NCBI GenBank assembly: GCA_012845835.1
Contig: JABAKD010000017.1
Span: forward strand, 6,317,151-6,381,150
Origin: Undaria pinnatifida
Lineage: Eukaryota; Sar; Phaeophyceae; Laminariales; Alariaceae
DNA length: 64,000 nucleotides
Direction: 5' to 3'
Part shown: positions 4,465 to 44,004 of the stretch, in pieces
How the letters are laid out: each line of letters starts with the position of its first letter
How positions within the stretch are numbered: the first letter of the stretch is position 1
The notes under the pieces: model-generated
The model's database searches: none
Told to the model about the DNA's origin: nothing
The model's input: the letters and a program-made list of their open reading frames with translations, nothing else
Translations under genes and position numbers: made by a program

Positions 4465-5369
4465 TTACTGGTGAAGCAGTGCGAAGTCAGTGCCTAGAGC
4501 ATCCAACACGCGGTAGTCCTCAACGGTTCCGCGGAACGCGCCGTACCCCTCCATAACCTCACTGCCGTTAACGTCCAAGATAGGGCGGGCCGTCTCGCCC
4601 AAAATTCCGGACAAGTTCGGATTGTCGATGGCAAGGCCGTCTAGGCCGACGTCCATCTGCCAGAACTCCAGGTAAGGGAGGACACGGCCGTCCCAGTTAA
4701 TTTCACCCCCCTCCTGGTAGCCAAAGCCGACGTTCAGACGGAGGTCGACGGTGGGAGTCATGAGCTTGAAGATGGCGTGGATGGACTGCACCTCCGCCAG
4801 GCCGTTTTCGGCAACGTATTTAGCGCACCAGTCAGGCGCCGCCATCTGGTCGAAACTGAGGACCCACTCCTCGAACGTAGCGGCCGAGAGGTCACGTCCT
4901 CCGTCCAACATCTCGGCGTACATGCGAGCCCAGAGCTTGTCCCCGCCGAACTGCCGGCATTCCACCGGCAGGTTCGAGGCGGAGATGTCGATACCGTCGT
5001 TCACGTACGCGGCTCTCGTGGGAACGAGCAGCTGGTTAGCATACTGTCCGTTTGCGACGGCGCGCAGGCCGCCGTTGGCGAGGCAGACCGATTGCCCATC
5101 AGGACAGCCGCTGGTGACGGTTGTGTAGGGATCCTTTACTTTGATCGCAAGGGAGTTCCCGTCCGAGATTAGACTGAGACCCGTGACCAGCTGGCGGTCG
5201 GGGAATTCATCGCGGTCTGGGGCAGTGAGGCGGACGTTGACGTGGAAGTCCGCGTCGGTGTCTTTGACGAGGCAGTACCATCCGCCATCGACCCCAGACC
5301 AGTTGATGCGCTGGCCTCGGAGGCCCTGCATATGCGGCTCACCGCACAGACTGCTTCCGGTCGGGCACA
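4465..5369 (-). CDS. Gene 1 exon 3 (VWD/root-cap-like domain)
   Basis: Open from the acceptor CGCAG at 5370-5374 to the TAA at 4465-4467. Visible landmarks: C-x6-C-G-E-P-H-M-Q-G at 67-81, a W-S-G-V-D-G-G-W-Y-C block at 89-98, H-V-N-V near 108-111, and a D-R-Q-L-V-T-G block followed by S-D-G-N-S-L. This order resembles the GDP-x-x-x-G start and LHxN strand of plant root-cap and VWD domains. The C-terminal half (S-N-L-P-V-E-C-R-Q-F-G-G to the end) has no domain I recognise. The exon looks GC-rich compared with its AT-leaning surroundings, and the frame stays open for 300 codons. Confidence 0.88.
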
Positions 5370-8234
5370 CTGCGGTCCGTTCATTTTTACATGCACGAAC
5401 GAGAGAGAATTGGACACGAGGTTATAACGGGCTGCTTCCGTGTGCGAGACTATGATTGTTAGAATCAACTTCCCTGCCAAAGGTACCATGCTCGTTCGCA
5501 AGTTCTGCTTCATCCCCCGAAAAAGGGGGTTACGTAAATGCCGTGGGAACGGATGTCCTCCCCGACAACGATGTGCATCCGAGGTGCACGGTTACCATTG
5601 CGCGCCCGCATAGTCTATGCACGTACGCGATGAACCGAACTATAGCGAAAACGACCTACCTATTGGGTCTTCAAGAGCGCGTTCCAGATCCAGGAAGAAG
5701 AACAAGGGCACCGGAAAAACAGACATGGGAAGCAGGGCAAACGTTGGAGGGATGCCATGTTCGGGTGTGTTTCGTGGATCATATCACAGTATTATGAGAG
5801 TATTATAAGACTAGTATAAGGCCAAAGATACGGTAGGGGGATTATGTTGTTTTGAAGTTTATTTTGTTACGGTAGCTCGGAGTCACTCGCGCGAGTGATC
5901 TCCCTGTTCCTTGCGGCGATAGGCTTTCGTGAGCTGTTTTAACTTTCCGAAATTAGTCCGTAATGGCATGGTGAGCTACGTTACGCTAAACCAACCACCT
6001 AACGTGTGATGGCCAGCGCGGTACAGAGTCCCCCCTGCGAGTATGAGAGTATGATAGTGAACACCAGGTAGAGAGAAAGGAGATATACCCGATACCGCAG
6101 CCTTGCTCACCAGTCCATGCGCACAAACAGCGCCTATCCTCGATAGCCGCACCGGTTGGGGCTGCTCGTGTAAACTCTTTACACGTGGTTGATGAAAGTT
6201 CGAGTACCGCACCCCGTGTCAGGCGATGGTTTGTTGGTCAAGCGATACCAGTGTCTTAGTTATCGAAAACAGACGTTTATATTGTTGCAGACAAACTCGG
6301 ACCTTTGGTACATGTACGGCTGAATCAATGCCTGCTCGCAAGTAAACGTGACTCCATTTGATGCTACGGCAGTTTTTGCCGTGTAATTCAATACGGTGGC
6401 ACGTGGTGACCATCTCGATCAGTCCCACGCCGAGAGTAACACGCGTTTGCTGAGACTGAGCGGCCGGAACGCTCTCTGTCGTGTAAAGGGAAGGCTATAA
6501 GATGTGTTCCCAGATGAGATCGCCTTCCTGTGATTGCGACGGATCCCCGACCGCAAGGCAACCGCTTGGAGCACGGTACCGTCGCCCCAAATAAGCGAAA
6601 TATCAGCAAACCATCCTTTCCATCTGTGCCAAGCAATGCGTGCGCCGCTCGAGCGAACATCTATCGCGCATGATTAATGTCCCTGCGCGTGCTTGGTACG
6701 TCGTTATTTAATTGCTTTCCTCGCGTATACGGACGGAATTATGGCTGCATCGATCCTGCTGCATGACACAAAGAGCTACTCCGAGTTCTGGCAGTTCTGG
6801 GCCATTTTTATCGACGTGGACAGCGACCCTGAGCTGCTTGAATCAGTATCCAGAGAAAAAATCTCCGTTGTAATTTCGAATGATGCTTTGAACAACAGCT
6901 TAGTGGGAAATGCCCTATGCGGCGAACGCAAACATATAAACAAACTCACTGCAGCAATTGTCGCCGGCCGTGTCCATCCCACAGTTGCCGGTGACCTTTC
7001 GATCCGATGAAGTGTAGTTGCACCCCTGAAAGAACAAGAACAGCAGCCGAAACATGACATTGCAGCAAAACTGTGTTGGAATTAGCGCTGCACGTCGCGT
7101 TTTCGTAGCTCCTGACAACGTTTGCAACACTAGTAGCAGGTTTAGTGTGCTGACGGCCTGGACACTTGCGGCACCACTCAAAATGGGGTAGAAAACGCCT
7201 GTGCAGTTGCTGGAGTTGCGTGGGGATGGGAACCTGCCCCGACTGCTGCAGCGTGTGTTGTTCGGTTGTCCCACCGGAACGAACCGACGGTCCTAAGGCG
7301 TAACGTTGGTGATGGCACGTTTCACGGTGGGGGTGCACGGTGCACCATCTGGTTTATGAGGTTCCTCGCTTGTCGAGCTCGATACTCAACCCTGAACACT
7401 GATTGTGACAAAAAATGAAAGTGCAACGCCCCGAACACCATCATCATGTGATCGGTAAAGCATGAAAAAAACGAGCGAAACGAAAAGGACTTTCCAACGG
7501 TGTTGGCTTAAGGAGGTGCGATGTAAACAAATCTGTTTTGATGAAAAAACAATTCCCCACCTTTTTTTGAGTTATTAAGAAGTCGCCAATTACTGAAAAA
7601 TATTGGCCATAATTAATGGCGACTCTGTCGTCGCAGCCGTTTGATGGGATGCCCTTTCCGTAAATGATCTCACAGAATGGAGTCCTTAGCTACGATAGAG
7701 CCAGCTTTTTTGCTTTTATTTTCTGATTTACGGGGCTCCTTAACCAAAACCGTCAGAAAAACGACATTTATTTTGTTTTTCATCGTTCGCGTCGTGTACC
7801 TAAACCACGGGAGTTTTCACCTGGGAGCGGTACTAACAAACTAGTTTAACTTTATCTCCGAAGCAGTTTTGGGAGAGGTCTTAAGCTCCCAAATTGAGGA
7901 ATCTCCGAAAAAAAGTGGTTGACCTCTATCGTAGCACGCGTGAGCCGTCATTTGCTCTTCGGTGAGATTCGGCCTCTTGCGCAAAGAGCGCGTTTCATAG
8001 AAGCACCAAACCGCTTTATGTAGAACACTACTGCGCCTGGTCACAAAAAGCTGAGACAGTGCGCAGTCGGTGCGATGCTTACCACTTGTATTTACTTTGA
8101 ACTCTGCGACTTACATCCCCCGAGTTCTTGCCGCTGCATGCATTTCGTTGCTTTTGCTTGGTGCTGGTTCCCATACAATGCTGCGGGCAGGACAAGGCCA
8201 GGAGCCCCATCGCCACCATCGTGGAAGTGTGCAT
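4465..8234 (-). CDS. Gene 1: secreted cysteine-rich VWD/root-cap-like protein, three exons, 366 aa
   Basis: The predicted mRNA joins 8234-8115, 7025-6950 and 5369-4465 (minus strand). Coding length is 1101 nt. Introns are 1089 and 1580 nt with donors GTAAGT and GTGAGT and acceptors TTCTTTCAG and CGCAG; phases are 0 and 1. The same structure is found independently in genes 2 and 3, which is the strongest support. The protein should enter the secretory pathway: hydrophobic N-terminus at about residues 6-16, then a four-cysteine module (41-65), then a long domain starting near residue 67 with C-G-E-P-H. Twelve cysteines follow the signal region (33, 42, 55, 64, 65, 67, 74, 98, 154, 161, 203, 247), an even number that would suit disulfides. 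The function is unknown; extracellular matrix or surface role is inferred. Intron 1 holds a family A element and intron 2 a family B element. It is divergent with gene 2. Confidence 0.8.
5825..6106. mobile_element. Family B element in gene 1 intron 2
   Basis: Left end gatacggtaggggg, palindrome gagtcactcgcgcgagtgatc at 5880-5900, right end gataccgcagcctt. Confidence 0.75.
6950..7025 (-). CDS. Gene 1 exon 2 (four-cysteine module)
   Basis: Twenty-five codons plus one base. The acceptor has a strong pyrimidine tract (TGTTCTTGTTCTTTCAG) and the donor is GTGAGT. The module starts G-C-N-Y, has the third cysteine pattern C-G-M-D and ends A-G-D-N-C-C. The leftover A joins TG of exon 3 to give ATG (Met66). 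Confidence 0.8.
7685..7940 (-). mobile_element. Family A element in gene 1 intron 1
   Basis: Left end gctacgatagagcc, internal ggggctccttaacc and gagaggtcttaagctccc, right end gacctctatcgtagcacgcg. Confidence 0.85.
8115..8234 (-). CDS. Gene 1 exon 1 (signal peptide)
   Basis: Forty codons, too short to stand out as an open frame. It starts MHTSTMVAMGLLALSC and ends S-G-D followed directly by GTAAGT. The start at 8234 was preferred over the in-frame ATG at 8219 because it aligns with the starts of genes 2 and 3 (G-L-L at residues 10-13 in all three). The exon shares the A-C-x-G-x-x-S/T-G-D ending and the lysine/glutamine-rich stretch before it with the other two copies. Confidence 0.75.
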
Positions 8235-9502
8235 TACACTGTGTCCTGTTCAAACGGCGTATGGATGGAACGGACAACGAACATGTTGTACAACCGAGCG
8301 CGGCAGAAAGAGATGAGACGCAGCGTCATGTGCGGCGTGACGAGAAATTTCATTATTACTGCATATGCCGTCGTTGCACTATCGTCAAACCTTACCAAGC
8401 CGAGGTGTGGTGCATGGCAGCAGCAGTGTATGTACGTGGTTAAATAACAGATGAGATGGCATTCGCAACACGCGCTGGCAGACGCTCGCACCAGCAAAGC
8501 AACTACTAGATGTGTGTACACTGTGCCCACCACGCCTGCGCGGACGGCTCATTAAATCGACATAGACTTTTCTTTTTACTGAGAACACAGTCTTGATTGC
8601 GGACTTGAAAATATAGGCGAGTGTATTTCGCATTGGGGTATAACGGCCTGCTTCACCCTGTGTCACTCAGCTGAGAGGCAAACGCAAAACACTCTCGGGT
8701 GTAGTGGCAGTTTCAGTACGTAAGAACCACTCGGAAGGGAGGTATGTGCTGAGAGCGAGAGGGAGAGGGGAATAAAGAGAGGTAGAGGGATTAGAGATAC
8801 GAAACAGGTGACGTTCGAGCCAACCTGTAACAACATTGGTAGAACGCTCAAGCGCAACGGATGGTGTCGACGGACGGACCACGATTTCGCCCCGCCGTTG
8901 CCAAGCATGTATGTGGCATATCTCAAAACGTCTATTCAGAGGAACGGGATGGGCAGTTACCTCATTCGTAAAACAATTGTCATGGTGTTAGTGCACGACT
9001 GACTGTGGAGTCCAAGAAGCAAGACAGTTAGAGGGCGTCGTTTGCTCGGAATGCCCAACGTAGGGTACGCCGTCAAGACTGCTTCCGTGCGTATACGACA
9101 CGAAGAAAAGTTGTAGCTGTCCCGTACGAAGATTGACCACAGTTCGTTCACTTGTCAACAAAGTGTATTGAATCTAGCGGTGGGATGCAGTCTGACTGTC
9201 TATCACCACATCGAGTCATCTTATTGTCTGTCTCGAACGTGAAGTTTCTATTCTAGGTACCGCTAGATGATTGGCGCATAATTTTCCTGGATATCTCTTG
9301 AAATCTCCGCACCTTTCTCTAATCTACTAATATAGACTACTACTGTAAACTAGAGACCAAATTGCATTCACGCAACGAGTGTACTCCGCGAGCTGTGGTC
9401 GATGTACTCCCGCGTAGAACACACGTTCACCGGCCACTCCTGGCTCGTTGCACTACCAACTGTACTGGCGCTGTTGAGAAAGCACGGACCGTCGACTGGC
9501 CT
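8235..9502. other. Upstream region of gene 1; no other gene recognised
   Basis: Holds a purine-rich run near 8740-8800 (gagagcgagagggagagg). Any gene 1 promoter would lie at its left end; no clear core element was seen. Confidence 0.4.
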
Positions 9503-9560
9503 GTGCTACGACAGAGGTAGCGCTATTGGCTGAAAACACTATTTCTGAAAAACGGGGATT
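9503..9560 (-). mobile_element. Family A end fragment
   Basis: gtgctacgacagaggtagc followed by gctgaaaacactatttctgaa matches the family A left end in reverse orientation; the rest is absent. Confidence 0.45.
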
Positions 9561-10409
9561 CAGAACCCCAAGTAGTCGAAGTTTCATTTTTTTTTGTCGG
9601 CAAATGTTTTTGATATAGTCTATGGCACAGGATTATTGTGTTTGCGGGTGATGGCGCGTTACTTTTTCTCCTCAAAAAGGTTTGGGCGGGGCATAGGTTT
9701 CCTCAAGAGAGCAGCCTGCAGGAACATAAAGAGTACCGTTGCACGCATCGACTTGTTATATTTCAACACGCGCATACCTTTGGTTTACCTGCTACGTACC
9801 AGGGGACCCGTCTTCGAATCAACCACATCGGGTTTGTCCGGAGTGCCACGTAGGCCCCCTAATCCAAAGTAACAACAACATATTTTTACCAGAAGATCGT
9901 GTGGAAAGTCGTCCCGCTTGCTTGATATTTGATACGCGAGAGAGACTGCCTACTATTTTTTGGGAGATCATCGCAGTGACATGTTGGTATGGTGGCGTGT
10001 GTGACCGCTGACGGGAGGGACACAACCCCGACACAAGTGAATTTCGTGACATTTGCCTGACGAAAATAGGGGATGACGTATCGTTCAGAGAAGGGTGGTG
10101 GAAGAAGACGACATACTACTGTAGCTCGAACCTCAAGTGTCTTCTATTGATTGTGTGCTTTCAGACGTTCACGAGAGATCAAGAACTCGCCGGGTGTTTT
10201 CCCGCCCAGTTCGCAAACTAAATTCTCGATCGATTGATGCTAATATCCAGAATCTCCACACCAATATGGCCGTCATGGTCCATACGTACATACACATACC
10301 GTGCGTGTGCGCAACAACAGTTGATGCGTACGGAAATAGCTTCACGATCATCATACCTGAGGGTAAACGCGGCGACTGAACGTAGATGTGGATAGCACCA
10401 GATGAGAAG

Positions 10410-10560
10410 ACGGTGATATTTCTGTGAGAGGGGGCGGGGAAGGGATGTGCGCCTTCCGTCGAGAAGAGGAAGGGAAGCTTAGGAGTGGCGTTGTGGGGTT
10501 GAGCAGATGTGTCGGCTTGGGGAGGAGGAGGAGAGCAGGAGGAGAGCAGGAGGGGACACG
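10410..10560 (+). repeat. G/A-rich low-complexity tract
   Basis: Purine-rich with repeated ggaggagagcagg units (near 10518-10550). The flanks 9561-10409 and 10561-10949 show no gene. Confidence 0.6.
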
Positions 10561-10949
10561 TCGTTCTAAGTTGTTGCCTACTGCTGTACCTTCGGACACT
10601 TTAATTAGCAGACAGCTTGGTTCCGATTACACAGTTGCAGTAGGCAAATGTTTCTACGTAACACTTTCATGTGGGAGGCATTTTAGTCGCACCACATAAG
10701 GGAACACATATGTATCTGGGTCTCATATATATTATAAAAATCAAATATATATACCACATACATGTCAAGCATACAAGTCTTTGTATGGCTGGAATCCTAG
10801 TTTCTGGGCACCACATGGTCATGCTCACGATATTAATATGGAAATCCTTGAGATCACGAGATCACGACAAGTGAGTTGAGCCGTCGTTTCATTTTCCCCG
10901 TTTCCGACCATCGCTCCTGTTTTACCAGGTTCGCGGAGTAACATGTTTG

Positions 10950-11665: not shown

Positions 11666-11714
11666 GAAGAAAAACATGGTATGTAGTAGTCTATATAAAA
11701 TTCCCGACCACCTA

Positions 11715-12692
11715 CACGATCGCCTAGACCTTGCACCACGCGTATAACAAACTGCTACATATCATTGATCTCAGAGCCGAAGTGTATTTGAATATTATTT
11801 GTAACCTACACCTCCTAAAAATCCCCCCCCTCTTGCTTTCCCTTACTCAAACGCCCCACCAAATATCGAAATCCGCCACATTAATAAACACTTCACGCAC
11901 AGGATATCACCTCATTATCTTTCGAGGGCCATCTATGCCGCTGTGTTTCCCCCCCCCCCCCCCACGTCGAACGCCCCCTTTTTCCCCATCACCCGCACCT
12001 TCGCCTAGACCTAGCACCACACGTATAACAAACCCCTCACCTAAAGCCGTCCCCCCCTCCCCCCCCCCCGCCCCCACCCCTCCCCGCCCCCACCCCCCAC
12101 CCTTCTCCCCCCCCAACCCATCCCAACCCCACCCCCTCGAACACTCCACCCTATCTTTACTCACTGATTGTACGAATTACCCCAGGATATACATGATAAA
12201 CTGATGTATAATTTCCAAAAATGTCACATTTATCCCCTCAAATTAATGTATAGTTTCCAGGCACATATTGAGCTGCCCCCCCCACCCCCCCCGCCCCCAA
12301 TAATATACTGGTGCCAAAACCGTCAGATTTATCCCCTCGAAATAATTTATAGCTTACATGCACAAATGGCCCCTTTCTCCCCCCCCCCCCCCCCCGCCCC
12401 CTTCCAAACCCGCTCGATTTTGATCATAACCAGGCCCCCCCTTTCCCTTCACAGCTGTCAGATTTTGTCCCCCTCAGAAACGGGTGTTATAGTTTCCGCG
12501 CACAGACTGACTAAAATCATCCTGTTGACCCTGATAGCTACACTGTAGTTGTAAGGGGAGTCGCCTACCTATATCCTTAATGAGGACACACAACTCGTAA
12601 TGCGCGCGGTCGGAGTATCACACACAGCTTGCAAAGATGAGTTTCGACGAAATCTTCGATCTCACAGCTGGAGTGTATTTTAATTTCTATAA
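11715..12692 (+). mobile_element. Family C element with long C tracts
   Basis: Begins atcgcctagaccttgcacca, includes C homopolymers at about 11949-11964, 12043-12140, 12277-12298 and 12378-12396, repeated gtcagattt-tcccc units, and ends cacagctggagtgtatttta. Proline-rich open frames here are by-products of the C runs. Confidence 0.8.
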
Positions 12693-12979
12693 TATAATTT
12701 GCATTGGAGCTACCCCATCGATGGTTCGAAAGGTATACCAGGTATGAAGCAAGGGCGTTCAAACACAATACCAATTTTCGTTGTGAAGGGAATACAAGCT
12801 TGCGCACTAATCTACATACTATATAGGCTGCGGTAGAATGTACCGCACGGGACACAATGCTGGTTGTGCCGTCCGTGCTGCCCAGCCTATTGTTTCCGTC
12901 CCGCAAACTTTCCATATTTCTCCTCTTTCATGATGGATGGATTCAACGGGAGTCCGAGTCAGCGTAGGCACGGATACGA

Positions 12980-13882
12980 TATATCTTTCAAGAGCCATCC
13001 ATGCCGCTGCTTCCCCCCCCCACCCCCCGCCCCGAACGCCCCCTTCTTCCCCACCACCCGCAATATCGCCTAGACCTAGCACCACACGTATGACAAACCC
13101 TTCACCTAAAACCCTTCCTTCCCCTGCCCTCCCGCACCCTCCTCCCCCCCGCCCCTCCCCGAGCCCCCCCACCCCATCCCAACCCCACACCCTCGAACAC
13201 TTCGCCCTGTCTCTACTCACTGATTGTACGACTTACCCCAGGATATACATGATAAACTGATGTATTCTTTTCAAAACCGTCACATTTATCCCCTCAAAAT
13301 TATGTATAGTTTCCGCGAACATATTGAGCTACCGCACACGCCCCCCCCCCGCCCCAACCCCTCCCCCCCCCATGTAATAAACTGGTGCATTTTTTTTTTT
13401 TTGTTTCTCCCAAAACCGTCAGATTTGTCCCCTTGAAAGGATTAATAGCTTACACGCACAAATTGCCCGCCCGTCCGCCCCCCCCCCTCCCTCCCCCGCC
13501 CGCCCCTCCAACCCCGCTCGCTTTTGATCAAAACCAGGCCCCCACGTCCTTCAAACCTCCGCCCCCCCCTCACCGGTTATTCGACTTGCAGGATTCACGT
13601 GAGGAACGGATACATTTCCCTCCACAGCTGTCAGATTTTGTCCCCCTCAGAAACGGGTTTTATAGATTCCGCGCACAGACTGACTAACATCACCCTGTTG
13701 ACCCTGATAGCTACACTGCTGTAGCTGTAAGGGGAGTCGCCGACCGATATCTTTAATGAGGACACACAACCCGTAATACGCGCGATCGGAGTATCACACA
13801 CAGCGTACAAACATGAGTTTCGACAAAATATTCGATCTCACAGCTGGATGGAGCGTGCATTTTGATTTTTATAATTTAATAC
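12980..13882 (+). mobile_element. Family C element, second in tandem
   Basis: Same order as the copy before it: catgccgctg then C tracts, cgcctagacctagcacca, gtcagatttgtccccct units, ctgttgaccctgatagctac, gtcgccgaccgatat, cacagctgg and an AT-rich end. Confidence 0.8.
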
Positions 13883-14983: not shown

Positions 14984-14986
14984 GAG

Positions 14987-15026
<40 letters not shown>

Positions 15027-15818: not shown

Positions 15819-16111
15819 GACGCGGGCTCTACACGGTATTAGAGGTGAGTCACGTTTTTTCTGCGTTTTCCTCATTCATTTCCGGAGCATAAGACCCCCT
15901 CCCGAAAGAGACGTCTGGAGAAGTTTTAAACTGCGCTACCTTGTGAAAAACTCCATGTCATGTCCTGGCTACACGACAACGATAATCATGATAAAAAACA
16001 AAAAAATGTTTAATTTCCGACAATTTTGTGTTACGAAACACGGTCATCATACAGAAATCATTTCTCCTGACAAAAATTGACACTACTACTACCTCTATCG
16101 TAGCACGCGTC
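15819..16111 (+). mobile_element. Family A element
   Basis: Left end gacgcgggctctacacg, internal aatttccgaca, right end acctctatcgtagcacgcgt. A 186-codon open frame starting at 15520 runs into it and is not treated as a gene. Confidence 0.75.
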
Positions 16112-21107: not shown

Positions 21108-21800
21108 CTTACCACCCGCACCATCGCCTAGACCTAGCACCACGCGTATAGCAAACCCCTGTTTCTATGCTACCTAAAGCTGTCAAAACGCTCCCCCCCC
21201 CCCCCCTCCCCCCCCCCCCTCCCCCCCCCCCCCCCCCCCCGCCCCCGCCCAATCACCCCCTCGAACACTCCGCCCTCTACTCATTGGTTGTACGACTCAC
21301 AGGATATACATGATAAACTGGTGCACTCCTTCTAAAACAGTCAGATTTATCCCCTTCAAGGATTTATAGTTTCCACGCACACAGATTGAGTTGCCCCGCC
21401 CGCCTCCCCCCCCCCCCCCCCCCACCCCCGCCGCCCGCTCCCTCTTGTTCAAACTCATGCCTCCACGCGCTTCAAAACTCCGTCCTCCCCTCACTCACCA
21501 GTTTTTCGACTTATAGGATACACTTGATAAACTTGATGCATTTCCTTCCACACCTGTCAGATTTTGTCCCCCTCCAAAACGGTTTTTATAGTTTCTGCGC
21601 ACAGACCGACTAACATCACCCTGTTGACCCTGATAGCTACACGATGTAGTTCCAAGGGGAGTCGCCGACCTATATCCTTAATGAGGACACACAACTCGTG
21701 ATACGCGCGATCGGAGTATCACACACAGCTTGCAAAGATGAGTTCGACAAAACCTTCTATCTCAGAGCTGGATGGAGTGTATTTTTACTTTTTTTTTTTT
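21108..21800 (+). mobile_element. Family C element
   Basis: Begins accaccgcaccatcgcct-like text, has long C tracts at about 21190-21240 and 21403-21423, then gtcagattttgtccccctcc, ctgttgaccctgatagctac, ctatatccttaatgagga and the ggatggagtgtatttt end. Confidence 0.8.
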
Positions 21801-25056: not shown

Positions 25057-25316
25057 AGGCTACATTAGGGGGGGTCCCCTTTTGGGCCTTTTATTTCAGT
25101 GGCAGGGGTCACTCGCGCGAGTAACCCTTTTGTTCCTATGCGATCTTACGTATTCTTCAAGTTTTACATCGACGAAATCAATCCGCAATGCAAAGGTGAT
25201 ATAAGCTCCGCCAAAACAAGTGCCTAAACCATTTTCATCCGTGGGGTACAGAGTCACTCGTGCGAGTGGCTCAAACACACCAGTGAAAATGGGGGTACCC
25301 CCCCTACCGTAGCCTT
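25057..25316. mobile_element. Family B element, near-complete reference copy
   Basis: Left end aggctacattaggggggg, right end ccccccctaccgtagcctt (complementary). Palindromes sit about 50 nt from each end: ggtcactcgcgcgagtaacc at 25107-25126 and gagtcactcgtgcgagtggctc at 25251-25272. No coding capacity. Confidence 0.88.
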
Positions 25317-25871: not shown

Positions 25872-25994
25872 ATGGTGCGCGCTTCTGGGATCTTGGGCAT
25901 CGGGCTCCTGGCTTTGTTTCCCGCGCACCAGGCAGTGGCAGCCAGCGTCAAGGAGAAACAACGCTATGCGTGCAAAGGGAGGCGCTCTGGTGAT
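25872..25994 (+). CDS. Gene 2 exon 1 (signal peptide)
   Basis: Forty-one codons starting ATGGTGCGC and ending GGT GAT before GTAAGT. The hydrophobic core is at residues 7-17 with a likely cleavage after the A-V-A-A stretch (about residue 24). The single cysteine (Cys34) and the S-G-D ending match the other copies. Confidence 0.8.
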
Positions 25995-28900
25995 GTAAGT
26001 CGCGAACTGCCAAAAACATTTTTTTCCCCGGACCGACTCCGTGTGAAATATCAACATAGATAGGGTGGAGGACCCAAACAGTCATATATATATAAATAAT
26101 GTTGGCCAAACCTGGGCTCCCTATTCATGGGAGGGCGCGCACGTGTGACAGATCCCGAATGCCTTTTATCCCAGTATGTATCAGTAAATATCAGCCTACA
26201 CCACATGAGTACGGTACTTGATTGCGCGTCAGACCCCATGTTTCGCTACTAAGTTCGAGCCACTCTCCTTAGTGACGCTGTACCTGAAGGAAAAAGGAAG
26301 GCGTTAGGGGATTGATTTTGGGCAATGTATCTAACCATTCCAAGACTGTTTGTCATGTGGCAAAACAAAAAAAGGAAAGAAAAGCTTGCCAAACCTAGCA
26401 AAAAAGGAGGGGTCACTGCTCCGAGTGATCCCAAGAAACTGCCAAAAAGAGGGCCCACTAATGCCCCCCACACGGTAGCCACGACCCCTCCCTGTGCTAC
26501 TACCCTTTTTCTCATGAGGGTTTCTGTGCCCTGCAGTCGTTAAACATGGCGCTCAGGCCGAGGTTCGGAATTCAGAATGCGACATGTTGGGAGAACAGCT
26601 GGGTTGTAGTCTGTATCTTTTCACCGGATGTGTGCACGAAACTCAACACTTAGTCAGAAGTTTACATGGTGCTGATAGTTCAGTATGGGAGATATGTATA
26701 CCTTTTTTTTTGCTCTTGACTCTTGAAAAACTGCTAAAACTGCCCGAGACATATTGGAATGCTTTCGTTTCCCAAACTGCTCTTGATATAACTCTGAAGC
26801 CGTGTAAATAACGTGGGCCGGCCCCACAGTAGCTGTTGTGCGTATTACATCTCACCAGGCACTAGTGTGTTTTATAGCGTGTACGGGGGTTGCGTTTTGG
26901 CAATGCTGTTGGGTTGCCGTCTAGAAAAAAGAGTATTCGTTGGGAAATTTCGAGCGCCCCACGTGCTTTTCCAGAACAACTCGTAAATGGCCCATAAATA
27001 TTATAAAAATTAAAATACACTCCAGCTGTGAGATCGAAGATTTCGTCGAAACTCATCGTTGCAAGCTGTGTGTGATACTCCGATCGCCCGCATTACGAGT
27101 TGTGTGTATGTTAGAGACCCCAGCCATAATCCCAACTCTGGCACCGAGGTTGATCAATAAAACCTTGTCCGGCTAGGACAAATTCCGGATTTTTTTTTCT
27201 TCGGAATATTTGTCAACCACTTGAAAAATTAAACGGTAAATAATCCCCGACGTTCCGACCCGGGCTACGGTTGGTTGGGGGGTTTCCATGGTTGGGGATT
27301 CATTTCTCAGTGTGGCTCGGGGTCACTCGCGCGAGTGACCCCTGTGTTCATTTGCGCGGTATTAACCTCTCGTAAGGTGTTTTGATTCTATGATATACGA
27401 ATCTGCAATGCGATGTGTGGTATGAAATTCTGGGACTGCGTTCAAACATATCGTCGCGTATAGCCTGTTCGGGCTTTTGTTGAAGCACGGAGACGTTCGT
27501 GCGAGCAACTCAAACTCGATGGTGAAAAACGGAGGACGACTCCCGTAGGGGGGTGGGTGCTCGTAGATAAGTCTGGTTAACTGTATGGAATTTTGGGAGT
27601 TTATATGACGGTAGCATTCTCTGAGGACACGTGCTACGATAGAGGTATACCGTATTTTGGCGAAAATGGTTTCTGAATGACAAGACTCCTCACCCCGAAA
27701 TCGTCAGAAGTGGGATATTTTAGTTTAATATGATCCTCGCTCTATACCTAGGTCATGGTATATTTAGTCCGGTCAGCGGTTTTAGTTTTCTCTACATAAA
27801 TCCGTTTTTGGTGAGGGTCTTAATATATCAGTTTTAAGAACCCCAAAGAAAAATCGGTGCGTCTCTATCGCAGCGCGCGTCGGAGCTAAGGTCTGGGATC
27901 TCAGTGTTTCCCGAAAGGGTGCAGTAAATTGGTAGACGTGAACGCCACTCCGGGGTATCGTATACCATGTACCAGGGTAATTCGTATGGCCAGAGGGCGA
28001 TGCCCCCGTCTGGTTCCCAGTGTAGTTATTTTTTTACACATACATTTACCCCGCTATCGCAGCGTTGGTCTTCTTGATTCATCCTTTATACCATTCCAAT
28101 GGTGTGTCGTAGGCGCCACACTGGGGCAGACTGTATAGAGTGAGTGCTGCTTGTAGTCACCATCTGCGACCATAATGTAGATATGCCGTCCGCCATCTCC
28201 CACAAAGCCACATATTTGTGTGGGGCTGGTACAGGCCTCTTGGAGATGCAACAGCCCAAGAACATTGCCACTACTGCACTCGACACTCAGCTTCCTACTC
28301 CATACATTCGTGTATTTGGTACATAAATTGTTTACCGGAGAGTACTCGGGGGATATTCGTCTGTATGTCGAGTGGAAAACAATACGAAGAAGTTTCTCCG
28401 TGTTGATTTAATGCGTTTTATGTTTTGACAATTTCCCTACGGTTGTATGGACCTTGCTTGTTTCGTACCAGGGATGCAACTACTACGCTTCGAGGAAACA
28501 AATCCGAGGCAAGTGCGGCATGGACAACGCTGGCGACAACTGCTGCCGTGAGTATCTAAATCCCGTCGTTCACAGTCGGAATGCTCCAGTAGTATAGCAG
28601 TGTGTTGTAGGTTCCAAACAAGTCCCCGTTGAGGACCGGTGCTGCGATAGAAGTAGCACATTTTTGCTGAAATGCTCTCTGACGGGCTCGGTTCCTTAAC
28701 CCCTTTTAGCACCCCAAACCCCCTTCCTAATCGAATTTCAAGTACTGTTTCTTCCAACAACGGGTTTCTAGCGTAAAGGCATTCAGCTGAGATCGTCGGA
28801 ATTTCGTTCTACGCTACTTGTGGGTGTTTTTAATCTTTGTTGTACGTCTACGACAGACATAGGATTTTTCTTGGGGCAGCACTTTAACGTGCCTTGTATC

Positions 28901-31900
28901 GATTTCCAGCTATTGGGGGCGGTATTGAACCCAGGGGCCTCATAGAATAATGGGCGCACTCCACGGTAGCATACGTCTTAATCTTCTACTCTTCGCCCAT
29001 CAATTGACAGCGCGCGTGTCACAGCAAGTATCAGAGTACATGCCGAGACAAATCAATTTAACTACAGTGTGTTGGCAATCATTAATCACTAAGGTGCAGT
29101 TTTGCACGAAACACCGCGCACGTTCACGTTGCCTCGCTCTCTCGGTCCCTGCTCACTGCCGAAGGATTTCGAGAAAACCGCGGCTCGCACGCTTGACATA
29201 TACATACCACCGACATTCGTGTAGTGTACGCGCTATGCTCCTCCTACGTCGTTTTTCGTTCCACCCATTTTTTTTTTCATCATCGATGCCTTCAGAACAG
29301 AACGTTCGCGTTTGGGGACAGACCTCGGTAGAGGGTGCACTGTTGTTTCTTCTGCGGCACCTCATTCGAGGTGCTTTATATGTACCTTAGCCAAAAAGAG
29401 GTATATGGTTCGTGGGGCCAAATGAAAGCGCAACACCATCATGAACAAAATCCATGAGCTGGGGTGTACCAACAAACAACATCGTAGAGAGAGAGAGTGA
29501 CATTCCGGCGTATTCGAGTCGAGCAGCGCCGTCATGCAGAAAAAAAAAGATTAGCCTAAAAGTAGTATACCCCCTCTTGTCGCTCATGTCCCCCGAGCAT
29601 TTTCATCGTCCACCTAGAAACCACGGGAAAGCTCCTCGGGTGCAACGCTTGCTTACAGTGAAAAGTAACGTGTTTGAGGGAGGTGCAGAGCCCCTCCAGA
29701 GAGAAGAACCCGAGAACAAAAATAACGGAATGCGCCTTTGGGTAACATGCGTCTCTATCTTACCTGGCAAATGTTTGACCTTCAGGAAAGCCAAAGCGTG
29801 CACCCAATGGACACTACCATGGTGTAGGCGTAAAACGAACGCGGTACTATTGAATAGAGGCTAGTTGGCCATTTAAAGTGTGAGAGCCCCGTCCTTGACA
29901 ACCGTCTCCGCGAATAGTTTCCAATGTTTGATCGTACCACGTGTCTGTTCTGAATGTATTGTATTCTACACGATTTTCCCAGGTAGCTCATTTTACGCCC
30001 TTGGACCCCCCCTCCCTCCCTTCTCCCCGCCCCCGGCCTTCGGTACCATCGCCCGCTTTGTCTCTTTATCGGTCTGGACCTGAACGGCGCTCCTCCTGAA
30101 GGCCCTGTAGGTGCGTGGCTGTCGCTGTAACTCGGTGAGCAACATATCGTGCATCATACAATATTGACAGGATAGAGATAGTTGAGTCGTCGTATCTCGT
30201 CACATCTCATGGATGTGAGGTTTTGTACAATAGGCGGACTCGCGGTCGGTGCAGATCAGCGCATGGCGTATGTGATGCGTGCAAGGACGAGGGTAGCACA
30301 TTATTCTGCGTGATGGGTCCTCTCAAATGATGCTTCTAAGCCCATCTCGCTGGAACTTTATTTGCGCATTTGTCAGTTCTTTGTTTTAATACCTGGAATT
30401 GTGTGCGTGGGACACACGAGGCTGCTCAACGAGCTGGGTGTTCAAAGTTTTCATGACTAAACAGTATGCTTCGTATATACATCGTCTCCCTCAACGTGGG
30501 ATATCGGCACGTCCTACGAAAGAGGGAGCAGGTTTCGTCTGAAAAAAAAATCTGAACATGGAGGGGCTCCTGCGCCCAAAATCGTAGCAAATATATATAT
30601 ATATATATATATATATTGCCTGATTCTCGTTGTGTATAACTAGGCCATAGGATGTTTCATCCGGTAGCAGGTTTATTTTTGTCCATATCAGCTTGCCGGT
30701 TAAAAAGGGGCGTGTCTTACGCTCCGAACGTGAGGGACCTGCAGAAAAAAAGTGAGCACCTTTATCGTGCCACGCGCCCTGCGTTGAATGTAGCAAGCAA
30801 CCCAACCTTTGCATGCGGTATATGCTGTGAAATTACAGAACGCACTGACAAACGCTTACAAAAAACTCACGTACACGGCACACTTTCCAACCCCCCTCCA
30901 GTCTTTCAAAAACCGAACCATGTGACGGGCGGAAACACGGCCAATCACTGTCTTGAGCAGCTGGAAACAGTCGACATCATAAACCCCTCACTCTCTCGCC
31001 TCCGCCCACGTGCTCAACCTAAAACCTTAACGACAGTGTGCCCCGACGGAAGCAGCCTATGCGGCGAGCCCCACATGCAGGGGCTCCGCGGCCAGCACAT
31101 CAACTGGTCGGGCGTCGACGGCGCCTGGTACTGCCTCGTCAAGGACGAAGACGCGGACCTGCACGTCAACGTCAGGCTCACTGCCCCTCAGCCTGTCGAA
31201 TTCCCAGACCGCCAGCTGGTGACCGGCCTCAGCGTGATCTCCGACGGCAACTCCCTTGTCGTGGAGGTAAAGGATCCTTATTCCACGGTTACCAGCGGCT
31301 GCCCCAGTGGACTCTCTCCCTGCCTCGCCAACGGCGGCCTGCGTGCCTTCGCAAACGGGCAAGAGGCTCCCCACCTTCTCATTCCTACGAGGGATGCGTT
31401 TGTGAACGTCGGCATCGATATCTCCGCGTCCAACCTGCCGGTGGAATGCCGGCAGTTCGGTGGGGACAAACTCTGGGCCCGAATGTACGCCGAGATGATG
31501 GAGGGTGAGCGCGAGCTGGCCGCCGAAACCTTTGAGGACTGGGTTCTCAGCTTCGACCAGATGGCAGCGCCCGAGTGGTGTGCCAAATACATCTCCGAGC
31601 ACGGCCTCTCCGAGGTGCAGTCCATTCACGCCATCATGAAGATCATGACCCCTACTGTCGACCTGCGCCTGAACGCCGGCTTTGGGTACCAGGTTGGTGG
31701 TGGAATCAACTGGGACGGACGCGTCCTTCCTGACCTAGAGTTTTGGCAAATGGATGTTGGGATGGATGGCCTGGCCGTTGACAATCCGAAACTGTCTGGA
31801 ATCTTGGGCGAGACGGCCCGCCCAGTGGTGGACCAAGCCGGCCTCGAGGTTATGGAAGGTTATGGTGCCATGCGCGGGACCGTCCAGGACTATCGCGTGT

Positions 31901-31938
31901 CCGGCGCGCTGGGTACCGACTTCGCTCTGATTGAGTAA
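25872..31938 (+). CDS. Gene 2: secreted cysteine-rich VWD/root-cap-like protein, three exons, 366 aa
   Basis: The predicted mRNA joins 25872-25994, 28472-28547 and 31037-31938, 1101 nt in all. Introns are 2477 and 2489 nt with donors GTAAGT and GTGAGT and acceptors TACCAG and CGACAG; phases 0 and 1, as in genes 1 and 3. The product has a clear signal peptide (M-V-R-A-S-G-I-L-G-I-G-L-L-A-L-F, then small residues A-V-A-A), the four-cysteine module, and the GDPH-like domain. All 12 mature-region cysteines of the family are kept. The introns carry family B, C and A elements, including a family A copy ending about 260 nt before exon 3. It runs divergently from gene 1 and convergently with gene 3. 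Secretion is a firm inference; biological role is unknown. Confidence 0.82.
26250..26482. mobile_element. Family B element in gene 2 intron 1
   Basis: Has gagccactctccttagtgac, ggtcactgctccgagtgatccc and the right end gcccccca-cacggtagcc. Confidence 0.6.
26993..27118 (-). mobile_element. Family C end fragment in gene 2 intron 1
   Basis: Only the conserved terminal 125 bp: ttataaaaattaaaatacac, tccagctgtgagatcgaaga and gtgtgatactccgatcgc, stopping near the point where two other short copies stop. Confidence 0.8.
27261..27555. mobile_element. Family B element in gene 2 intron 1
   Basis: Left end gggctacggttggttgggg and the perfect 20-bp palindrome ggtcactcgcgcgagtgacc at 27321-27340. The right end is diverged (gactcccgtaggggggtgg). 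Confidence 0.7.
27626..27881 (-). mobile_element. Family A element in gene 2 intron 1
   Basis: Left end gacacgtgctacgatagagg, right end tctctatcgcagcgcgcgtc; internal ctgaatgacaagactcctca and tatacctaggtcatgg. Confidence 0.9.
28472..28547 (+). CDS. Gene 2 exon 2 (four-cysteine module)
   Basis: Twenty-five codons plus one base between a TTTCGTACCAG acceptor and a GTGAGT donor. It reads G-C-N-Y at the start, K-C-G-M-D in the middle and G-D-N-C-C at the end. The final C joins TG of exon 3 to make a Leu codon. Confidence 0.82.
28633..28978 (-). mobile_element. Family A element, 346-bp subfamily, in gene 2 intron 2
   Basis: Ends gaccggtgctgcgatagaag and ccacggtagcatacgtc. After cttaaccc it carries about 80 extra bases starting ttagcaccccaaacccccttc that are also present, diverged, in the copy at 35516. 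Confidence 0.75.
29320..29590 (+). mobile_element. Family A element in gene 2 intron 2
   Basis: Left end gacctcggtagagggtgcac, internal gacattccggcg and gagcagcgccgtcat, right end accccctcttgtcgctcatg. Confidence 0.65.
30504..30779 (-). mobile_element. Family A element in gene 2 intron 2
   Basis: Left end gcacgtcctacgaaagaggg, internal ggccataggatgtttcatcc, right end gagcacctttatcgtgccac. It contains an (AT)n run. Confidence 0.8.
30590..30617 (+). repeat. (AT)n microsatellite
   Basis: About 14 units of at, inside a family A element, where the other copies have an A/T-rich stretch. Confidence 0.9.
31037..31938 (+). CDS. Gene 2 exon 3 (VWD/root-cap-like domain)
   Basis: Begins after CGACAG preceded by a pyrimidine-rich stretch (ctcactctctcgcctccgcc) and ends at TAA 31936-31938. 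It has C-G-E-P-H-M-Q-G, W-S-G-V-D-G-A-W-Y-C, L-H-V-N-V-R-L and the S-N-L-P-V-E-C-R-Q-F-G-G block. The reading frame is also open for 385 nt upstream into the intron, but that stretch begins inside a family A element and lacks family similarity, so it is treated as intron. Confidence 0.9.
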
Positions 31939-35515: not shown

Positions 35516-35870
35516 GACGTGAGGTGCGACAGAAGCAGAACACATTGTTTGTGGGGAAAACACTCCCTGGATGACGGGCCTCCTTAGCCCCATTAGAGCC
35601 CCGAATTCCTTCCCAGAACTATTCCCAAGTAAGCTTTCGTCAAAGGCGAGGTTCCGGTTGTAGTCTAATGGCGTTAAGTCAAAATCGTCGGAATAATGAC
35701 ATTGTTGTTTTGCAGCCGAATCTTATGAGCACTGAGAACATGGGATATTTTTCATTGGAATTCACTTTCTTATTTTATTTTCTGAACGTATCGTCCGGTA
35801 GGGTGTATGACTCCCGCCAAGCCTCAGAATCAAGGGGCTACGGGATCTCTACCGTCGGATGCATATGCGT
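35516..35870 (-). mobile_element. Family A element, 355-bp subfamily
   Basis: Left end gacgtgaggtgcgacagaag, internal tggatgacgggcctccttag, extra block starting ttagagccccgaattccttcc, aaaatcgtcgga; right end eroded (gatctctaccgtcgga). Confidence 0.6.
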
Positions 35871-38811: not shown

Positions 38812-39713
38812 TTAGTGGAGCAGCGCAAAGTCGGTGCCCAGAGCATCCGAGACGCGGTAGTCCTCAGCACCTCCACGGAACGCGTCGAACCCTTCCATGA
38901 TCTCGACGCCGTTTTCGTCCACCACTACACGAGCAGTCTCGCCCAGGATGCCAGAAAGTTTCTCGTTGTCGATGTCCAGACCCTGGAGGCCGACGTCCAT
39001 CTGCCAAAAGTCGAGCCCAGGCAAGACGCGGCCATCCGAAGTCTGCTCCCCCTCGACCTGGTACCCGAACCCGCTGTTCAAGCGCAAGGTGACAGTGGGC
39101 CCCACGATCTTGAATACCGCGTGTGCGGATTGCACGGCGGCGAGTCCGTGCTGAGCGATGTAACGCGCGCACCACCCTGGGGCGGCCATCTCGGCGAAAC
39201 CCAGCACCCAGTCCTCGAAGTTCTCCCCGCGAAGATCCCTCCCACCCTGCAGCATTTCCGCGTACATGCTGGCCCAGAGCTTGTCAGCTCCGAATTGCCG
39301 GCACTCCACCGGTAGGTTCGAGGCGGAGATCTCGATACCATCGTACACCAGGACATCCCTCGTGGGGACGAGGAGATGCTCGGCGTCCTCTCCGTTCGCG
39401 ACAGCACGCAGCCCACCGTCGGCGAGGCAAGGCGAGACCCCGGCTTGACATCCGTCCGTGTGGATGGTGTAAGGGTCTTTTACCTCCACCACAAGGGAAT
39501 TGCCTTCCGAAATGAAGCTTACCCCCGTGACCAGCTGGCGGTCGGGGAATTCCACGGGCAGGGGAGCAGTGAGGCGGACATTGACGTGGAGATTTGCGTC
39601 TTCGTCGGCGATCAGGCAGTACCAGCCGCCGTCGACGCCGGACCAATCGATTTTTTGGCCGCGCAGGCCCTGCATGTGCGGGTCTCCGCACAAGCTGCTT
39701 CCGCTTGAGCATG
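38812..39713 (-). CDS. Gene 3 exon 3 (VWD/root-cap-like domain)
   Basis: Starts after TCTGCAG and ends at TAA 38814-38812. It carries C-G-D-P-H-M-Q-G-L, W-S-G-V-D-G-G-W-Y-C, N-L-H-V-N-V-R-L and V-E-C-R-Q-F-G. Length equals gene 2 exon 3 exactly (902 nt), which argues for purifying selection on the reading frame. Confidence 0.9.
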
Positions 39714-42700
39714 CTGCAGATCAAAGTGCAAACCAGTACGAATTAAATTCAAAGTGCATAGCAGTAGGGATAAAAATGTAAGTACGAAATAGGACGCTGT
39801 CTGAATATTTTAGCTTCCTTCGCAGTGCGATTCAATCACGGCACGAGATGCTTTACCGTGATAACGCGGCATGATTTATCAGTGCGAAAGGACGTCATGT
39901 GATCGACTGATCGGCGGGCGGGCGGGCGGGCGGGCGGGCGGATGTTCTTGGGTCGCGTGCTACGGTTGAAGAGATGAAGGCCCCCGTAGGATGGATACCA
40001 CCGTTTTCATACAGGATCAGAGTCACTCGCACGAGCGACTCCGCGCCTAACGGACGCGAAGACGCTAGGCGGTTGCTTTGGACGCAGAAGATCATATCAT
40101 TCCAGTGCGGATTGCTGTCGCCAAAATGAAATCAGCTCGGAGGATTAGAATCGCATCCCAAAAAGGAGCCGGGCGGAGGTCACTCGCGCTAGCGACCTCG
40201 AGCTGCTGCCAACATAATGCGATAAGTATTACTCCTCTATGCCGTAGCCCTGGTTACGAGTACCCTTTTAGTGGAACCGGTATGTTAGTTTTGAGGGGCG
40301 GCTGCTGTAGATGTCGTTGGCTACGTTTTGTCGGATGATCAACCATGACGCGTGTCTCAGTGGGTTGTGCACCTGTGTATCCGAAGCTCATGCCGTCAGG
40401 GCTCAAACTTCGATTGGGAAAATATTTGAACAGTTTCACTAATGAACTACTCAACGGCGTAGGTACACCCCTCAATTAGGACAACTGATGCTATTGCAAA
40501 AGTTTTCGACGTCAAATTAGATTCGTTCTATGTGTGTGGAGGGGTCCTGAGTACGAAAAGCTTTGTTCGGAACACAGCATCGGTGGCGGACGCATGCGCA
40601 ACCATTGTCCAAGTCGATCGGCAGCAGGCAGGCTTCAACACACATGCTAAACGTGTTCGTGGCCAGCTGTGGTAAGGGGCGTGGAGAAATGGCTCGTACC
40701 TAGGTGATGTACTGGCTGAGATCTCCCGTTTCTCTCTACCACGCACATCGTCGTTCGACGTTAAAATATCAACACATCTACACTAACCACTTCATACCTG
40801 AAGAGTCTTTGTCAAGGGGTTCGCCCAGGTGTCGGGGCGCAAGGGAGTGGTTGCCGAACATGTTCGAGAGCAAGAGAGGAGGTCAAACGAAGCGTTGTCA
40901 GATGGGCATGATTGTGACCGTGTGGCTATCAAATAGCTAACATGGGGCAAATTTTTGTTGACCAACACCACGGCACTTTTTTGTTATCAGTCGTTTCTTT
41001 GAAGGGTCTAGAGCAGCACCACGCTCAGCATGGTCTACGCATGTTGTGTACTCCTAGTATCGCAAACTCGGAGACATGCACCACCTCAGTAGTACGGGCT
41101 TCTTCGCGTGGAAGGACGCCGCAATCGCATATATGTACATAGGGTTCGACCCCGGCTGGGTCACAAAATGTCGCAACATCAACGGTGTGTCACGCCGCTT
41201 TACAAGGTGGGCGCAAGAATTAGCTGCCATGTGCGTCATCGTTGGGTGTTGGGAAACGACACGCTCGTCGAAAACACGAAACGTGAAACAACAACGTGTA
41301 AGAGTATGTGACTTCGGAGAGGTATATTTTGTTTTCCGTTCTCAGCTGAGGGCGTGGTCGGTTTGTAACGATTTTTTCTACACCATTTCTGATATCGCTC
41401 CATCTCGCTTAATGCATGAGGTGGAAACATGGTTTACACCTTTGAAGCCGATTGATACAGGCCAATAGGCAACGACGGTCGCGATCTTATCAAGCCACTA
41501 GAGAGAAAGCTTGAGATATTTCGAGATATTTAACGTCAAGCCCCACGCTTGCCTCACGGCTTCCTGAGTTCTAGTTTGAACGCACCTCCTACACCAGCAG
41601 CTCTGGTTGCTCGATGTGGTCAATATGCGGTAACCGCCAAAATATTCATTTTTTTTCGTGATTTGTTGCGTGTGGTGCCTAACGTGGCATTCGCCACCAA
41701 AAAAAGCCCGACGAAACACTTGTTACGGTCGATAGCGAGAAACACCACGCCAACACAGACTCACAGCAACACTCGTCTCCGTTGCTGTCCATCGAACACG
41801 CCCCCATGACCAATTTTCCCGACGAATAGTACCTGCACCCCTGCAAGTATATCGGAGGGGGCAGAACGGCCATATATTCAGCATTTATCTTCCTCTAACA
41901 CGCTAGGTAGACTCGCCCGCTTCGCTCATGTGTACCCCGCCTCGCCCGTCGTCAAAATAACGTGTTTCAGCCACAAACAACTCTGCGTATATTATATACA
42001 CTACCTAGTCTACATTGACAACATAAAAAAGTATTGTCGTAGGCAAAAGTGCAAGTGCCCAGGTAATTCATCGCTGATAGTCAACACAAATATCACCACA
42101 ATGAACTACGACTGTGTAATAGTCCTGCTGGACTTCAGTATATCACTATGCATAGACACTGCTGCTGGCAATACTTCAACAATTATCTTTATAAGTACGC
42201 ACGACATCTACGTGGAACAATCAGATTAAGGCCAGCGCGTGGACCATGGGCTAGATGCTACGTTCCAGCACACGTACGTGGGAGTCTTTTTTCGTCCTGT
42301 GGGAGATGGACCTTTTTTCTTGTTTCTAAGATACCGGCCTCCCACTACTGGTGCTTGGGAGCACCACCGTCCCCACTGCCGCACTCCTCTGACCTTTACT
42401 ACCGCACGTACTGCTGCACTGCCGTACTGCTGCCCTCTATTCATTTTGTTTTATTAGTACAGTAGTGACTACGGTTTAGGAGACTTTTTGTAAGAGAAAG
42501 TACGGTTCGAAGAGAATTTTCGGGCTGGTACCGATCAAAATCGATTCAAGACAATATTTATTATAAAAAATGAAAATACACTCCAGCTAGCTGTGAGATC
42601 GAAGATTTGTCGAAACTCATCTTTGCAAGCTGTGCATGCGATACTCCAATCGCGCGTATTACGAGCTGTGTGTCCTCATTAAGGATATAATATTTGGGCT

Positions 42701-44004
42701 GTTTCAGTGAAATTCTCTTAATTCGTAACCCCGCCATACTCAGAAGTAGCAAAAAACATTCAGTCAACCCCACGACGTCGCAGAGAAGGGCCACATACGT
42801 GCCCGACGTATCCTACCGCCTTCGCAAGGCTAAGCTAGCTTGGATGAGTGCCCGTCGGTGGAGAGAAACAAAGCAGACGTGCACGGGATACTTTTTTCAG
42901 TAGTATGTAGCGGTTCACCAGGGAGGCCGAGAGAGACGAGTCGTCGGCTTGCTGCGCTTCGGTTGACTTTTAGCGCGTTCGTTCTTTAGCACCTACCTGC
43001 AGTCAGTAGTAGCTAGTAGTGTGTTTTAGCTTTTTCCCGGTGAACCATTTCAAAGGTTGTTACATGTATGTATAGTCCTCTAGACTATATATTATAAAAA
43101 TTGAAATACACTCCAGCTGTGAGATCGCATAAATTGTCGAAACTCATCTTTGCAAGCTGTGTGTGGTGCTCCGATCGCGCGTATTACGGGTCGTTTGTCC
43201 TCATTAGGATACAGATCGTATAGCCAACATATCATATTTACGATATTCGCCGCCCATAACGTTTCCTTTGTGTAATACATACCCAGGCTTTTCCATCGCA
43301 CAGGGACCCGACGAAACATCGACTTGCTGCTGCTAACGAATACCCCGGTCTTTGACTATAGCTATTCCCTACTTGTTCATGGCACATGCCCCCAGACTCT
43401 CCGTTTTCAGCCCTCTCAAATCAAGAGACCAAACGTGTAGACTAGAGGTCGAGCCCGCGGCCGAAATGCCACGGGGCCCACAAACAACATGGATACGTAA
43501 AACAATCCGAAAAATACCGAGCCGTTATAAAAATTTTGTTATGTGCAATTACCTTCACGTCTACCCACAGCAGTGGCTTCAACAAATAATAGTTCAATGG
43601 TTTGGTGCATCTATTCTTCGCTTGTTGATATTTTGATGCTTGTACTTGAGTGTTGTGCTGTATACGCCTATCCCTAATTGTTAATAGTCTAACTAAAACG
43701 GAACAAATGTATGCACGATAGGATAGGAGGTTGCCTGCTACCCCATAACATCACATGCCAAGCATTTCCATACGTCTGCTTGCGCACACGTCTCAACTGT
43801 GTATACGTTACTGGCACGGCGGAAAGCGGGTCGGGTTAGGTTGGAATGTAGGCATCGCAGTCAGACACGTTTGCTCACATCTCCAGTGCCTGAGCCTCTG
43901 CATGCCGCTACTTGACGCTCCTTCATGCTTGTCCCAGACACTTGATGCGAGAAGGGGAGGACCACCAGTAGCCCGACCGCAGCTATCCCCGAGGTGTACC
44001 CCAT
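38812..44004 (-). CDS. Gene 3: secreted cysteine-rich VWD/root-cap-like protein, three exons, 367 aa
   Basis: The predicted mRNA joins 44004-43879, 41840-41765 and 39713-38812 (minus strand), 1104 nt. Introns are 2038 and 2051 nt with donors GTGAGC and GTGAGT and acceptors ACTTGCAG and TCTGCAG; phases 0 and 1. The product has a signal peptide, the four-cysteine module and the GDPH domain with the canonical C-G-D-P-H spelling. The 12 family cysteines are present. Intron 1 holds two truncated family C elements, and intron 2 holds a family B element and a GCGG microsatellite. The gene is tail-to-tail with gene 2 (6.9 kb apart), and the decayed gene 4 lies beyond its 5' end in the opposite direction. 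Confidence 0.82.
39913..39942 (+). repeat. (GCGG)n microsatellite
   Basis: About seven units of gcgg in gene 3 intron 2. Confidence 0.95.
39960..40253. mobile_element. Family B element in gene 3 intron 2
   Basis: Palindrome forms gagtcactcgcacgagcgactc at 40019-40041 and aggtcactcgcgctagcgacct at 40177-40198; right end ctctatgccgtagccctgg. Confidence 0.7.
41765..41840 (-). CDS. Gene 3 exon 2 (four-cysteine module)
   Basis: Twenty-five codons plus one base between ATACTTGCAG and GTGAGTCTG. It starts G-C-R-Y-Y, has A-C-S-M-D in the middle and ends G-D-E-C-C. The final T joins CA of exon 3 to give Ser. It is the most diverged of the three modules yet keeps all four cysteines and the M-D and G-D pairs. 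Confidence 0.8.
42556..42692 (-). mobile_element. Family C end fragment in gene 3 intron 1
   Basis: ttataaaaaatgaaaataca, tgtgagatcgaagattt, and gtcctcattaaggatata at the break. Confidence 0.8.
43090..43212 (-). mobile_element. Family C end fragment in gene 3 intron 1
   Basis: ttataaaaattgaaatacac, tgtgagatcg, gtgctccgatcgcgcg and a break at gtcctcattaggata, nearly the same break point as the copy at 42556. Confidence 0.8.
43879..44004 (-). CDS. Gene 3 exon 1 (signal peptide)
   Basis: Forty-two codons starting M-G-Y-T-S-G-I and ending T-G-D before GTGAGC. Hydrophobic core at about residues 7-18. The frame is open further upstream into a family C element, but the start at 44004 aligns with the starts of genes 1 and 2. 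Confidence 0.78.

Follow-up and report, generated by a model that had tools for sequence, protein, structure and literature searches.

Annotation often overlooks microexons of up to 15 nt, and 9-nt cases have been named in plants (PMC8831610). Neuronal microexons of flies were described as having AG exclusion zones and pyrimidine tracts that are both long, together with weak donors (PMC8797185). The DPH domain of plant proteins was described as a unit of about 280 residues with DPH at its start and a root-cap motif at its end and, in the available portion of that source, its nr matches were all in streptophytes (PMC10796529). A literature search gave no paper tying root-cap domains to VWD domains, or to brown algae or oomycetes, among the matches listed. 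A family of genes within a single 64-kb stretch of DNA (the window) was compared with these systems.

Gene A (minus strand) was composed of exon 1 at 8234-8115 (120 nt), with the start codon, a hydrophobic signal-peptide-like stretch, the first shared cysteine and donor GTAAGT; exon 2 at 7025-6950 (76 nt), with the cysteine module GCNY...CC and donor GTGAGT; and a last exon at 5369-4465 (905 nt), encoding a putative VWD-type domain and the stop. Gene B (plus strand) had exon 1 at 25872-25994 (123 nt, donor GTAAGT), exon 2 at 28472-28547 (76 nt, donor GTGAGT) and a last exon at 31037-31938 (902 nt), and gene C (minus strand) had exon 1 at 44004-43879 (126 nt, donor GTGAGC), exon 2 at 41840-41765 (76 nt, donor GTGAGT) and a last exon at 39713-38812 (902 nt), the last exon in both again encoding the putative VWD-type domain and the stop. 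When the junctions were rebuilt from the sequence, the three-exon lengths reported in the first-pass annotation agreed base for base, as did the phases (0 then 1) and the GT-AG introns of A, B and C. All six donors were reproduced, six of six acceptors ended in CAG, and the 12 cysteines described as equivalent fell in 12 columns common to the three proteins; two cysteines of gene A beyond the shared 12 were both in the signal-peptide region.

The conceptual mRNAs of A, B and C were translated to 366, 366 and 367 aa, with a single terminal stop in each. In tblastn searches of the 64-kb window, the matches of each exon to its two paralogs had E values of 1.7e-5 to 7.3e-8 for exon 1, 8.4e-8 to 6.1e-11 for exon 2 and, among the matches listed, <=2e-147 for exon 3. 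Exon 1 was picked from the candidates of a scan for an ATG, a hydrophobic start and a GT border (8, 5 and 3 in A, B and C) and was then confirmed by these paralog matches, while exon 2 was found again, independently of earlier coordinates, by blind frame-by-frame comparison. Protein identity among the genes was 42-46% in exon 1, 54-62% in exon 2, and 81, 73 and 73% in the last exon. Ka/Ks over the whole CDS was 0.16 (A-B), 0.22 (A-C) and 0.14 (B-C), values for the short exons on their own being unreliable, and the comparison of sequences argues firmly for purifying selection on the coding sequence. A, B and C are genuine genes, correctly seen in the first pass, probably with four exons each: the paralogy and the shared plan stood, and the tally of three exons probably omits one, a 9-nt microexon within intron 2 of each gene.

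"Intron 2" of A, B and C probably harbours this 9-nt exon in frame. The candidates were ACCCAATAG in gene A (5668-5660, minus strand; acceptor AAG, donor GTAGGT, with an AG-free zone at 5671-5810 ahead), GCCCTGTAG in gene B (30102-30110, plus strand; acceptor AAG, donor GTGCGT, AG-free zone 29987-30099 ahead) and ACTCTTCAG in gene C (40806-40798, minus strand; acceptor AAG, donor GTATGA, AG-free zone 40809-40925), the last being the weakest of the three. The element was first spotted by eye as a shared block of intron 2 ending in AG|GT, before the AG-zone test had been designed. The zones measured 140 nt in A, 113 nt in B and 117 nt in C; each ended exactly at the acceptor AAG of the element, and they were three of the top five by length among the 627 AG gaps of the six introns. 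The AG-free length before the six known acceptors was 43-81 nt, and AG gaps of at least 110 nt numbered 19 of 6,911 in the entire window, counting both strands. The spacing from AAG to donor was exactly 9 in A, B and C. Each element was in frame with stop-free joints, reading DNCC-NPI-V-CPT (A), DNCC-RPV-V-CPD (B) and DECC-YSS-A-CSS (C). The microexon donors fitted GTRAGT at 5, 5 and 4 of 6 bases (A, B and C) and the exon 2 donors at 6 of 6; the AAG acceptor was unlike the six others, which end in CAG.

Conservation of the element was assessed in several ways. The three copies of intron 2 contained 2, 2 and 3 YAG|GTR sites, giving 12 triples, and the microexon triple was top with a score of 18, against 2 for the runner-up and 4 for the highest in 200 Markov shuffles, a null weakened since many shuffles contain no complete site triple. 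Between intron 2 of A and B, the microexon block was the best unbiased local alignment (52; shuffle maximum 39, n = 400); the gene C element was not the top local alignment with A or B (scores of 14 versus 38 and 34 elsewhere). A profile of two copies put the remaining copy first within its own intron in three of three cases. Window positions matching the profile score or better were 4, 4 and 28 of 127,964 for A, B and C, and the gene C microexon is therefore weak by itself. The element was short, bordered by AG and GT, frame-keeping and conserved among the paralogs, more weakly in C. These comparisons argue strongly that each of the three genes has a conserved 9-nt element, in frame and preceded by a long AG-free zone, and we infer that it is used as an exon in the mRNA.

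The main rival to a microexon is a zero-length recursive splice site at the 9-nt element, whereby intron 2 would be removed in two steps, by splicing to TAG, TAG or CAG (A, B and C) and then from the adjoining GT, to leave a three-exon mRNA. As expected of a ratchet point, the YAG end of every element does abut GT (GTAGGT in A, GTGCGT in B, GTATGA in C), and zero-nucleotide recursive splicing is already known in flies. Against it, the AG-free zones stop at the AAG exactly 9 nt upstream in three of three genes; a recursive acceptor needs no such AAG, whose conservation at a fixed spacing would be left unexplained, and the introns are just 1.6-2.5 kb. With the constant upstream AAG speaking against it, recursive splicing is considered unlikely.

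Less probable again is a conserved intronic enhancer, structured RNA or residual similarity in genes with three exons only: the A-B likeness extends approximately 40 nt beyond the donor and is broken there by single-base gaps of non-coding appearance, C has little in common beyond the AG|GT signals, and the A-B score downstream of the genes was slightly high too (36 versus a maximum of 35 in 30 shuffles), whereas the exact 9-nt spacing, the frame and the AG-free zones recur in A, B and C, an Rfam search gave no match within the window, and the one further elevated intron match that was examined (intron 1, A-B) was a dispersed repeat motif. That match scored 42 (maximum 37 in 40 shuffles); the motif had 17 matches in the window, and intron 1 was rejected as the site of a hidden exon. 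Two other long AG-free zones of intron 1, in B (132 nt) and C (109 nt), showed no visible shared counterpart. The initial comparison of the introns had given short matches only. These were a 20-nt match between A and B in intron 1 (E 6e-4), discarded as a motif repeated through the window, and a 27-nt match between A and C in intron 2 (E 0.009), discarded as a palindromic repeat motif matched 11 times across the window.

In the first-pass annotation the exact three-part protein had not been recognised from any named family. This held for library models, with nothing above family cut-off in Pfam, NCBIfam, PHROGs and PDB sequence searches of the A, B and C proteins; the last exon does have kin, and appears to encode a divergent VWD-type domain with a root-cap-like end. 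Weak rows for DUF5943 (E 0.14-0.19), EBA-175_VI (2.3) and phrog_349 (0.07-0.25) were taken as chance, and searches for relatives in the prokaryote and viral collections gave 22 and 31 pattern matches, of which none was confirmed. The VWD search that had been proposed was negative using Pfam PF00094, which left A, B, C and their consensus without a match up to E 10, and positive using a more sensitive profile. At least 118 stretches selected on GDPHxxTFDG were harvested by a pattern scan of prokaryote genomes, 117 sequences being usable; three of three harvest rows tested with Pfam were VWD (51-73 bits). The 117-sequence profile scored A, B and C at 10.7, 4.4 and 11.9 bits, which 0, 1 and 0 of 2000 shuffles equalled; with the selection motif removed from the profile, 0, 4 and 13 of 2000 were as good. 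Comparison with VWD by hhalign gave E 6e-5 with the motif and 0.0025 without it, and in an alignment of 62 rows GILG was aligned with the GLLG end of VWD.

An AlphaFold model made from the three paralogs only was poor, with a pLDDT of 31.8 and a pTM of 0.22. With 59 bacterial VWD rows added (of 60 listed) these values were 58.3 and 0.61; residues 11-80 were at pLDDT 75-89 and residues 231-260 at 74-82, and pLDDT was below 50 at 128 of 299 residues. In a Foldseek search of the PDB with the enriched model, ranks 1-8 were chains of MUC2, MUC5AC and Cypridina luciferase. Their E values ran from 1.8e-3 to 3.7e-2, with none <=0.001, at TM 0.19-0.35 and rmsd 8-11 A. Cypridina luciferase is taken here to contain VWD domains. 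The fold search lends support short of proof and is partly circular, because the alignment behind the model was filled with VWD rows. The profile comparisons make a convincing case, at the level of sequence statistics, for kinship to VWD and for a divergent domain of that type in the last exon.

For the root-cap comparison a single plant sequence was used, whose end is Root_cap by Pfam (96.7 bits). The root-cap profile search also proposed in the first pass was negative for PF06830 (Root_cap), which up to E 10 matched none of A, B, C, the consensus and the C-terminal piece, and a C-terminal likeness to the plant sequence was found. A PF06830 scan of the lambda record and 14 control genomes gave zero matches and was hence uninformative. 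The last 75 residues were matched to the plant piece as well by 4, 1 and 12 of 5000 shuffles (A, B and C) and the first 60 residues by 108, 12 and 2 of 5000; for the tail after GILG the counts were 439, 87 and 2 of 5000, significant only in C. The middle of the domain was unlike the plant protein, and hhalign with this one sequence reached only E 0.024 and 0.034. The A, B and C domain probably works like the root-cap/DPH group and may be kin to it.

It is improbable that the last exon is a separate lineage-specific domain, unrelated to VWD or root-cap proteins and with a convergent GDPH-like start: no library family and no sequence of the PDB or of the prokaryote and viral collections matched it, and its middle matches nothing (221, 58 and 72 of 500 shuffles as good), but the start and end blocks match VWD and the plant protein with their order kept, removing the GDPH motif leaves support for A and weak support for B and C, and the fold search with the predicted model was led by mucin D-domain and Cypridina luciferase chains.

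The family had been described as three genes at 4465-44004. The three genes stood, and a decayed fourth copy was located outside that range. This copy D, at about 51110-52000 (plus strand), was a decayed last exon; its DNA was 64-66% identical to that of A, B and C and was disrupted by a 12-nt deletion, three or more frame-breaking gaps and an internal stop. Neither exon 1 nor exon 2 could be recognised convincingly upstream of it, and a microexon was sought in D and not found. The strand order along the locus was A minus, B plus, C minus and D plus. Just ahead of D, LCGDPHLQ at 50918-50941 (plus strand) is a possible scrap of a further copy (E 0.8-2.4). Among the neighbouring open frames, 10 of the 109 others of at least 95 aa were scanned with Pfam (best E 0.057). 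Two stretches resembling exons of a further gene were picked out by eye at 56579-58870 on the minus strand (LNRRAEPVMARLGVPMVRGYDITRG; VNYERLLEEAVLYY...), with nothing above the Pfam cut-off. A tRNA search of the window gave no match.

Repeats were present between the genes. A 12-bp satellite, GTCTATGACATA, was present in 17 copies at 46015-46219. The motif CGTGCTACGATAGAGGT (for example at 7922-7938, 16091-16107 and 27630-27646) was matched 17 times across the window when up to 3 mismatches were allowed, versus 0.12 expected, and is likely to be the end of a mobile element. A palindromic motif, ACTCGCGCGAGTGA, had 11 matches in the window versus 0.04 expected (for example at 5880-5897, 25106-25127, 27320-27341 and 40020-40041). 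A dispersed repeat of approximately 110-130 bp was located at 12570-12701, 13747-13875, 21666-21794, 26995-27107, 42552-42689 and 43086-43218, close to C-rich low-complexity stretches in several places.

The reading we favour, with reasonable though not high confidence, is that A, B and C form a secreted, disulfide-rich family with a four-exon plan including a microexon, a divergent VWD-type domain and a role at the surface or in the matrix. Exon 1 would supply the signal peptide and the first cysteine, the signal peptide having been judged from hydrophobicity alone, with the hydrophobic stretch itself a criterion of the search script. Exon 2 and the 9-nt microexon would combine with the beginning of the last exon into a small module, containing a CC pair plus three further cysteines directly ahead of the domain, the microexon inserting NPI, RPV or YSS and altering the junction residue with the frame kept. 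The remainder of the last exon would supply a beta-rich domain with a GDPH/GEPH start, a G-ILG end, a long insertion and a C-terminus like that of plant root-cap proteins. We infer export, disulfides and a matrix role from the protein sequences; exported and folded via disulfides, the proteins are most likely surface or matrix components that stick to one another or to polysaccharide.

If these readings are correct, comparison of paralogs within one raw window exposes a 9-nt exon missed by open-frame and standard gene finding, and the signature of long AG-free zone, exact spacing and frame would be usable for genome-wide scans. Secreted proteins of the root-cap/VWD type would reach beyond the sight of the Pfam models, bearing on the origin of plant root-cap proteins and on the surface proteins of this lineage. 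That a eukaryote outside the streptophytes has VWD proteins of the root-cap/DPH type, with a domain older or more mobile than thought and an obligatory 9-nt microexon kept through several duplications, is a tentative proposal that we regard as possible and rather doubtful.

Compared with VWD domains (PF00094; found in mucins, VWF and bacterial proteins), the present domain shares a C-GDPH/GEPH-like start, a strand-rich first 80 residues and a GILGE that lines up with the GLLGN end, and mucin D domains topped the fold search with its VWD-enriched model; it differs in giving no Pfam match, in having the TFDG part replaced by a GLRGQ-type stretch and in its poorly modelled middle of about 150 residues. 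Root-cap/DPH proteins (PF06830) have what looks like the same layout, as set out in the available portion of PMC10796529, of a domain of about 280-300 residues running from a DPH start to the C-terminus of the protein, and GVLGRTYRP in the plant protein corresponds to GILGETARP here; PF06830 was without a match even using the consensus, and the DPH matches reported in that portion are all from streptophytes. Conserved short microexons of plants and animals differ in that the present candidate has an AAG acceptor, is known from paralog comparison alone and lies in a protein family other than AP2, GH32 and the others named for known cases in the available text. They resemble it in the length of 9 nt, the keeping of frame, the weaker donors and the long AG-free zones (PMC8831610, PMC8797185), and the pattern in A, B and C is of this kind.
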